Source: Candidatus Kaiserbacteria bacterium
Lineage (GTDB): Bacteria > Patescibacteriota > Minisyncoccia > Phycocordibacterales > UBA2100
NCBI GenBank assembly: GCA_028286865.1
Contig: JAQBQU010000018.1
Coordinates: forward strand, 1 to 40,790
Direction: 5' to 3'
DNA: 40,790 bases
In this document: positions 3,352 to 4,211 of the stretch, in pieces
Layout of the letters: every line of letters begins with the position of its first letter
Numbering within the stretch: the stretch's first letter is position 1
Notes under the pieces: generated by a model
Seen by the model: only the letters and a program-made list of their open reading frames with translations
What the model was told of the DNA's origin: nothing
Database searches by the model: none
Translations under genes and position numbers: made by a program

Positions 3352-3876
3352 ATGAACGAAAATTGGTACGTACTCACCGGAGGACCATGCGCGGGCAAGA
3401 CGACGACCATCAATGAGCTCGCCAAGCGCGGGTATCCGGTCGTGGCCGAAGCGGCCCGGCTCATCATCGAAGAAGAACTCGCGCAAGGCACGACGATAGG
3501 CGAGATAGTCTCCCACGAGGATTGGCTACAGGCTGTCGTGCGCCGGGCGGTCGAGATGCAAAAGTCCGTCAATGAGAATGAGCGCGTATTCTTCGATCGC
3601 GGCATTCCGGATTCCATAGCGTACTACCGCCTCGGCGGAAAGGAGCAGGACGAAGTGCTGAAAGCGGCGCTCGATGGCGTGAAATACAGAAAGATATTCT
3701 TGCTCGACCTCGTCGATTTTTCCAACGACCCTGCGCGAAGCGAAACGCTCGAAGAGGCACGCACGCTGCATCAGTACATCGCCGATGCGTATCAAGGGCT
3801 CGGCTATGAGATCGTGCGGGTCCCGGTTATGCCGGTAGAGAAGCGCGTCGACTACATTCTTGCGCATCTCGCCTAA
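3352..3876 (+). CDS. AAA_28-type P-loop ATPase/kinase-like protein
   Basis: A 174-residue P-loop protein, starting at the ATG 1 nt after the folA stop; a TTG start at 3340 overlapping folA is possible but less likely. The P-loop GGPCAGKTT is at residues 10-18. A DRGIPDSIAYY segment near 85 resembles the DR motif of nucleoside and nicotinamide-riboside kinases. The closest recognised group is the AAA_28/NadR-kinase-like family, whose substrates are mostly unknown. Its place as last gene of the dcd-thyA-folA operon suggests, but does not prove, a nucleotide-related kinase activity. Confidence 0.75.
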   Translation: MNENWYVLTGGPCAGKTTTINELAKRGYPVVAEAARLIIEEELAQGTTIGEIVSHEDWLQAVVRRAVEMQKSVNENERVFFDRGIPDSIAYYRLGGKEQDEVLKAALDGVKYRKIFLLDLVDFSNDPARSETLEEARTLHQYIADAYQGLGYEIVRVPVMPVEKRVDYILAHLA

Positions 3877-3928
3877 CTTCACGATATCAACACCCCCGCT
3901 CTTGTATGCTCCACGAAGTAAGCGGCGG

Positions 3929-3937
3929 TGATATAAT
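3929..3937 (+). promoter_or_regulatory. Extended -10 promoter of the candidate ncRNA
   Basis: TGA followed by a perfect TATAAT (3932-3937) forms an extended -10 element. No good -35 lies at 16-18 bp. A start near 3944 is predicted. Confidence 0.6.
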
Positions 3938-3943
3938 CCGTCT

Positions 3944-4115
3944 AGGTTTTAAGGTCGATACGTTTAACAGGTTGAGGACGTAGTTCTTCGTTTTAGCCGG
4001 TTTGGTCCGCAAGGATCATTTCGACCCGGTGAGAGACGCTCAGGAGTCGACGCCTTGAGGAAGAATTGCGATCTCGTGTCCAAAGAAAAGAACCACACGT
4101 TTGTGTGGTTTTTTT
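3944..4115 (+). ncRNA. Candidate structured non-coding RNA of unknown family
   Basis: About 170 nt between an extended -10 promoter and an intrinsic terminator, with no credible reading frame. Pairings visible by eye: GAGGAC 3974-3979 with GTTCTT 3983-3988; GGTCC 4004-4008 with GGATC 4013-4017, closed by a GCAA (GNRA) tetraloop; CCGG 3997-4000 with CCGG 4026-4029; GGTCGA 3953-3958 with TCGACC 4021-4026, which competes with the previous stem; and CTCAGG 4039-4044 with CCTTGAG 4053-4059. No gene follows on this strand for more than 5 kb, so it is a free-standing RNA rather than a leader. It does not match SRP RNA (no GGAAGCAG apical loop), RNase P RNA or tmRNA by inspection; 6S RNA is not excluded. 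Confidence 0.55.
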
Positions 4116-4120
4116 CTTTG
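4081..4120 (+). terminator. Intrinsic terminator, probably bidirectional
   Basis: Stem AACCACAC/GTGTGGTT with a GTTT loop (4091-4110), then a T run. The flanks extend the inverted repeat almost perfectly to 18 bp with T-rich ends on both strands. It can end the ncRNA rightward and the ABC operon leftward. Confidence 0.85.
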
Positions 4121-4211
4121 TGCCCAGCTTGCGGCAAAGGGATGTGCCTCTTCGAATCTTATCCTCGGCAAAACTGCCTGCGGGGATTCTCAGAGCCGCA
4201 TCCCTATGTCG

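Follow-up and report, generated by a model that had tools for sequence, protein, structure and literature searches.

What is encoded between an ATPase gene and a permease gene at positions 3929-4119 of this contig, and if it is an RNA, of what kind? The window, i.e., the whole 40,790-nt stretch of DNA analysed, is one complete contig (JAQBQU010000018.1, assembly GCA_028286865.1) of an 871-kb, 21-contig genome of a Candidatus Kaiserbacteria bacterium. On the + strand, a dCTP deaminase-like gene, thymidylate synthase, dihydrofolate reductase and an AAA_28 ATPase gene lie upstream of the interval. The ATPase gene ends at 3876, in the same orientation and about 50 nt before 3929, with no terminator in between. 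On the 3' side is a convergent ABC-2 permease gene (− strand, stop at approximately 4212). The interval itself contains no annotatable or long ORF, and about 140 nt after its promoter are free of any long ORF. The sequence-only reading proposed a non-coding, free-standing RNA that has a promoter and a terminator of its own. Both parts of that proposal held at the sequence level: long ORFs are missing, the conserved motifs described below share no reading frame, and both signals lie inside a conserved block. We consider the interval very probably a functional, independent RNA gene on the + strand, composed of an extended −10 promoter, a core of about 138 nt and an intrinsic terminator.

The promoter (TGATATAAT, 3929-3937, + strand) was recognised from its sequence and has no good −35 element. 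Its −10 places the 5' end to within about 2-3 nt, giving a predicted transcript of 3944-4119. The terminator (approximately 4082-4119) is a predicted hairpin, AACCACAC-GTTT-GTGTGGTT, followed by TTTTTC. A terminator pattern scan scored this site for the − strand only, because the long stem takes in the U tract when the + strand is read. Judged by eye, the + strand has the better U tract, both here and in three divergent homologues (G043, G011 and G045), each of which has the RNA and then a + strand U-tract terminator with a different stem sequence. U tracts therefore appear in the same arrangement in all four distinct members, and they favour the + strand as the one that would carry the RNA. 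The homologues also have plausible −10 elements (e.g., TGATATTAT in G045, at the position equivalent to the −10 here).

Conservation, rather than folding energy, argues strongly for an RNA gene. The sole close relative is G009 (Umea1_bin-3528, contig CAIRSC010000012.1), where gene order is the same. The two cores are identical at 135 of 138 bases (98%), and the 176-nt block contains five differences, three of them in the core. The five flanking genes have protein identities of 71-94%, third codon positions that are 49-58% identical and, at identical residues of the four-fold type, third positions that are 39-52% identical; the intergenic flanks can hardly be aligned. Near-identity extends from the −10 to the terminator and begins at the promoter, where TGATATAATCCG is identical and the bases upstream have diverged. 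Of the differences, T3994C replaces the U.G pair at 3994-4033 by C-G (helix P3), C3998T and G4028A together make a compensatory C-G to U-A change (helix P4), and the two terminator differences either preserve the stem or fall in the loop. Recent transfer between the two genomes is unlikely, given a syntenic locus and a block whose limits coincide exactly with the promoter and terminator. Folding energy is weak evidence: the z-score of −5.33 obtained with the terminator included is owed mostly to the terminator. We rejected it as proof of an RNA gene because the core alone reaches only about −1.6 (−1.57, with 17 of 200 shuffles folding equally well) and z-scores in the other members lie between −1.9 and +1.2.

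BLAST and a covariance model built from the two sequences (R1) returned G009 as the sole match, a 23-base exact word occurred among 84,980 genomes in G009 only and in no viral contig, and BLAST against phage and plasmid collections produced no match to the RNA. Over 98 relatives, R1 found G009 and one 15.8-bit match in G013, which we rejected as it lies antisense within a long ORF resembling dihydroorotate dehydrogenase. At 24 permease loci R1 gave no credible match, which shows that two sequences make too narrow a model for detecting the divergent members.

The divergent homologues were instead found via motif and synteny searches. Sequence adjoining the permease gene in other species held two further RNAs (G011 and G043) with AGGTCGA and GGGARTCGACGCCT. 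The exact 14-base motif of hairpin P6, RGGARTCGACGCCT, occurs at four places in 52 genomes of the genus, every one an RNA locus, and inspection of one-mismatch matches added one more with the full context (G045). G043, G011 and G045 share the 5' GGUCGA, P6 and the + strand terminator. Each has the ABC permease on its downstream side, as in the window. The upstream neighbour is the end of an ATPase-type gene in G043, as in the window, and purB in G011 and G045; all members lie directly 3' of a co-oriented gene. Homologues with compensatory changes, which the sequence-only reading had named as its check, were found among the relatives.

The RNA was detected in five of 52 species of the genus (five members, four of them distinct), and more diverged motifs could escape detection. 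In 45 genomes of the genus, scanning as far as 20 kb around the permease brought up no additional members. When the motif pair was searched for with a gap in 397 genomes of the order, it hit 13 places, apparently coding (several of them have one coding-like sequence in common), and the motif pair was unseen outside the genus. A tree built from the permease and its ABC partner has the five carriers in scattered positions, requiring at least four gains or losses; the spread over the genus tree is patchy and the RNA is therefore dispensable. As a separate observation, the convergent purB-permease intergenic site (e.g., L163, L133 and L148) looks variable: among several species inspected it contains small ORFs that differ by species, and in some species the RNA is present there. 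In the best reading, the RNA is the founding example of a family confined to a single genus of Patescibacteria-like bacteria with small genomes.

The predicted fold has a single-stranded 5' region followed by nested helices, all on the + strand. The conserved tail element GGUCGA (3953-3958) is found near the 5' end of all five members. P2, a long closing helix (3979-3989 with 4060-4070), appears in both the MFE and centroid folds; it has no base differences in G009 and hence lies outside any covariation comparison, and a helix around P6 is predicted in G043, G011 and G045 too. Inside P2 are P3 (3990-3994 with 4033-4037) and P4 (3996-4000 with 4026-4030, with CCGG/CCGG inside it). Next comes P5 (4003-4008 with 4013-4018, loop GCAA at 4009-4012), the GNRA-capped hairpin that the sequence-only reading had picked out by eye. 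P5 is unchanged in G009 and missing from the shorter homologues, so it is specific to the closest pair, as is the whole extra P3-P5 arm. The joint UUCGACC (4020-4026) has counterparts, UUCGAC(C/A), immediately before P6 in both G043 and G045. P6 (4039-4044 with 4054-4059, loop AGUCGACGC at 4045-4053) is the hallmark of the family.

P6 combines a fixed loop with a changing stem. The loop, A(G/A)UCGACG(C), is near-invariant, with one purine varying, and sits on a stem that has been almost wholly rewritten: CUCAGG/CUUGAG in the window, CUCUGAG/CUCAGAG in G045, CUUUGCGGG/CUUGCAAAG in G043 and GCUGGG/CCUGGC in G011. When the distinct sequences (four in all) are compared, four of six pairs have changed on both sides and 22 of 24 cells are paired, a signal that is lost when the partner strand is slid by 1-3 columns. 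In the common register the G011 stem contains two mismatches, and full pairing there requires a loop of 8 nt. A stem of equal or greater length arose in 13 of 5000 shuffles for the window sequence, 7 of 5000 for G045, 7 of 5000 for G043 and 412 of 5000 for G011.

The 5' tail can pair with the joint. GGUCGA at 3953-3958 is complementary to 4021-4026 and also, over five bases, to the P6 loop. Complementarity between the tail and the UUCGAC element extends over six bases in the window, seven in G043 and six in G045; in G011 it is possible only as a shifted five-base CGAUU/AAUCG. The GGUCGA:UCGACC pairing is thus retained in three of four distinct members, but any single instance could be chance (4-15% of shuffles). 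By sequence, tail pairing arose in 44 of 300 shuffles for the window, 12 of 300 for G043, 22 of 300 for G045 and 76 of 300 for G011. Because each tail pairing alone is unremarkable against shuffles, a tail-joint pseudoknot is suggested, not established. Two pairings of TCGACCCGG (4021-4029) had earlier been described as mutually exclusive. Both exist (3953-3958 with 4021-4026, and 3997-4000 with 4026-4029), but they are not strictly exclusive: they share only base 4026 and, in the model, could coexist as a pseudoknot. The pairing of 3997-4000 with 4026-4029 has the support of the compensatory change at 3998 and 4028 in G009.

Sequence comparison shows the gene unit, its orientation and conservation, the P6 hairpin with a constant loop, and a single compensatory pair in P4. 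As to mechanism, we tentatively propose a trans-acting RNA, with a probability of roughly 0.45. It would be transcribed in the cell from its own extended −10 promoter, end at the intrinsic terminator and fold so that the long P2 helix encloses P6 and its near-invariant loop. The single-stranded tail GGUCGA would dock on the UUCGACC joint 5' of P6 to form the pseudoknot; alternatively, it may pair with the loop of P6. That loop and the GGUCGA near the 5' end have stayed fixed while the stems changed, and both are predicted to be accessible, which suggests that they are contact surfaces. As the likeliest role of a free-standing RNA, they would act by base-pairing with target transcripts, like ordinary trans-acting sRNAs, and tail docking would control their exposure. 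Elsewhere in the window, the sole perfect 9-nt complement of the P6 loop is GCGTCGACT (3845-3853), in the upstream ATPase gene. It is kept in G009, and it may be chance because the corresponding G043 stretch does not match G043's own loop.

The main rival to target pairing is that the RNA binds a protein at P6 with its fixed loop and at the UCGA repeats, and acts as a decoy or scaffold or dimerises through its UCGA palindromes. The fixed loop suits a protein-binding site equally well, as a constant loop on a freely changing stem is also typical of protein sites. The window, G043 and G045 have UCGA in all three elements (tail, joint and loop), G011 in the tail and the loop, and constraint between the closest pair of species covers the core over its full 138 nt. 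However, no cognate protein gene is consistently linked to the RNA, whose neighbours are the AAA_28 ATPase, purB and the ABC permease. We judge this explanation unlikely overall, if the strongest of the alternatives. The same UCGA elements would also allow a new class of structured RNA that works as a switch, in which the tail pairs with either the UUCGACC joint or the P6 loop, or the palindromes dimerise, leaving the loop hidden or exposed; this seems distinctly improbable.

Less probable again is that the interval is a 3'-UTR element of the upstream operon, i.e., that it mainly ends and stabilises the ATPase transcript and that the −10 is incidental. The geometry is compatible: the RNA is on the same strand, about 50 nt past the ATPase stop codon with no intervening terminator, and every member is immediately downstream of a co-oriented gene. 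However, conservation includes the extended −10 but not the DNA directly before it, the upstream gene varies among members (ATPase or purB), and a stabiliser has no need of a fixed loop.

It is very unlikely that the conserved nucleotides encode a small peptide. The candidate is a 25-aa ORF (3906-3983, ending ...DIIRLGFKVDTFNRLRT) that overlaps the promoter and the 5' end of the RNA, and the same frame in G045 reads MILLIRLGDKVEVVY, with IRLGxKV in common. Yet G043 and G011 have no peptide counterpart, the ORF start precedes the −10 in both this genome and G009, and the conserved block extends about 135 nt beyond the ORF stop. The distance from GGUCGA to GARUCGACG is 91 nt in the window, 47 nt in G045, 33 nt in G011 and 51 nt in G043; these spacings differ by non-multiples of three, so the two motifs have no common reading frame. 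We judge the conservation of the ORF to be a by-product of RNA and promoter conservation.

A divergent 6S RNA, the identity floated by the sequence-only reading, is the least plausible of all: length (about 170-180 nt), free-standing position, own promoter, strong terminator and long helices are 6S-like, and the genome has no RF00013 match elsewhere, but RF00013 gave no match even at E 10 over 3880-4150, P2 joins P3 directly with no unpaired 5' strand and so the model has no two-sided central bubble, the RNA is patchy (five of 52 species), and the GCACCCACC motif is absent. RF00013 stayed below its gathering score (46.4 bits) in the window, and a search of the whole genome found no match. Relatives in the order do have weak but recognisable 6S-like RNAs with that motif: L031, L032 and L034 (in G054, G094 and G076, at approximately 1450-1650) have sub-threshold candidates with GCACCCACC and a closing stem, and in two cases a terminator-like hairpin can be seen after the RNA. 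These are probably divergent 6S RNAs underscored by the Rfam model.

No other known family fits. As the sequence-only reading had anticipated, Rfam searches at gathering and permissive thresholds produced only sub-threshold chance matches. The best by E-value was RNAI (RF00106), which scored 18.5 bits where the cut-off is 47 (E 0.26). It covers P6 and the terminator hairpin with many pairs broken, and the plasmid replicon and overlapping antisense target of RNAI are not seen here. ARAGORN found no tmRNA in the window, and no tRNA is predicted; the UUCGAC stretch presumably resembles the conserved tmRNA 5' sequence, but this RNA is too short and has no tag frame. The RNase P RNA of the genome (RF00010) is on another contig (G000:C4, 128.9 bits). 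The SRP RNA models RF00169 and RF01854 do not match at the locus. Nor do they match anywhere in 41 relatives including this genome, while searches of this type found SRP RNA in control genomes and RNase P RNA in 36 of the 41. Either loss of SRP RNA or strong divergence may explain this in the lineage; the RNA described here, found in only five of 52 species, does not look like the missing SRP RNA.

The closest likeness is to trans-acting intergenic bacterial sRNAs, which share an own promoter, a length of 100-200 nt, an intrinsic terminator, a conserved accessible loop or tail, a narrow phylogenetic range and fast change outside the contact surface. This RNA differs in having no Rfam match, in how unusually strongly the closest pair of species conserves the core from end to end, and in its possible tail-joint pseudoknot. 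Literature searches turned up no publication about such small RNAs in Patescibacteria. We regard it as what appears to be a genuine new small-RNA family of an ordinary kind, conserved, structured, free-standing and lineage-restricted, and not as 6S RNA. If real, it would be a compact RNA gene of such a lineage with a comparative model (fixed loop, changing stem and candidate pseudoknot), and its defined loop and tail could be used for a target search. It would also mean that tiny genomes can retain non-coding RNAs that covariance libraries overlook.
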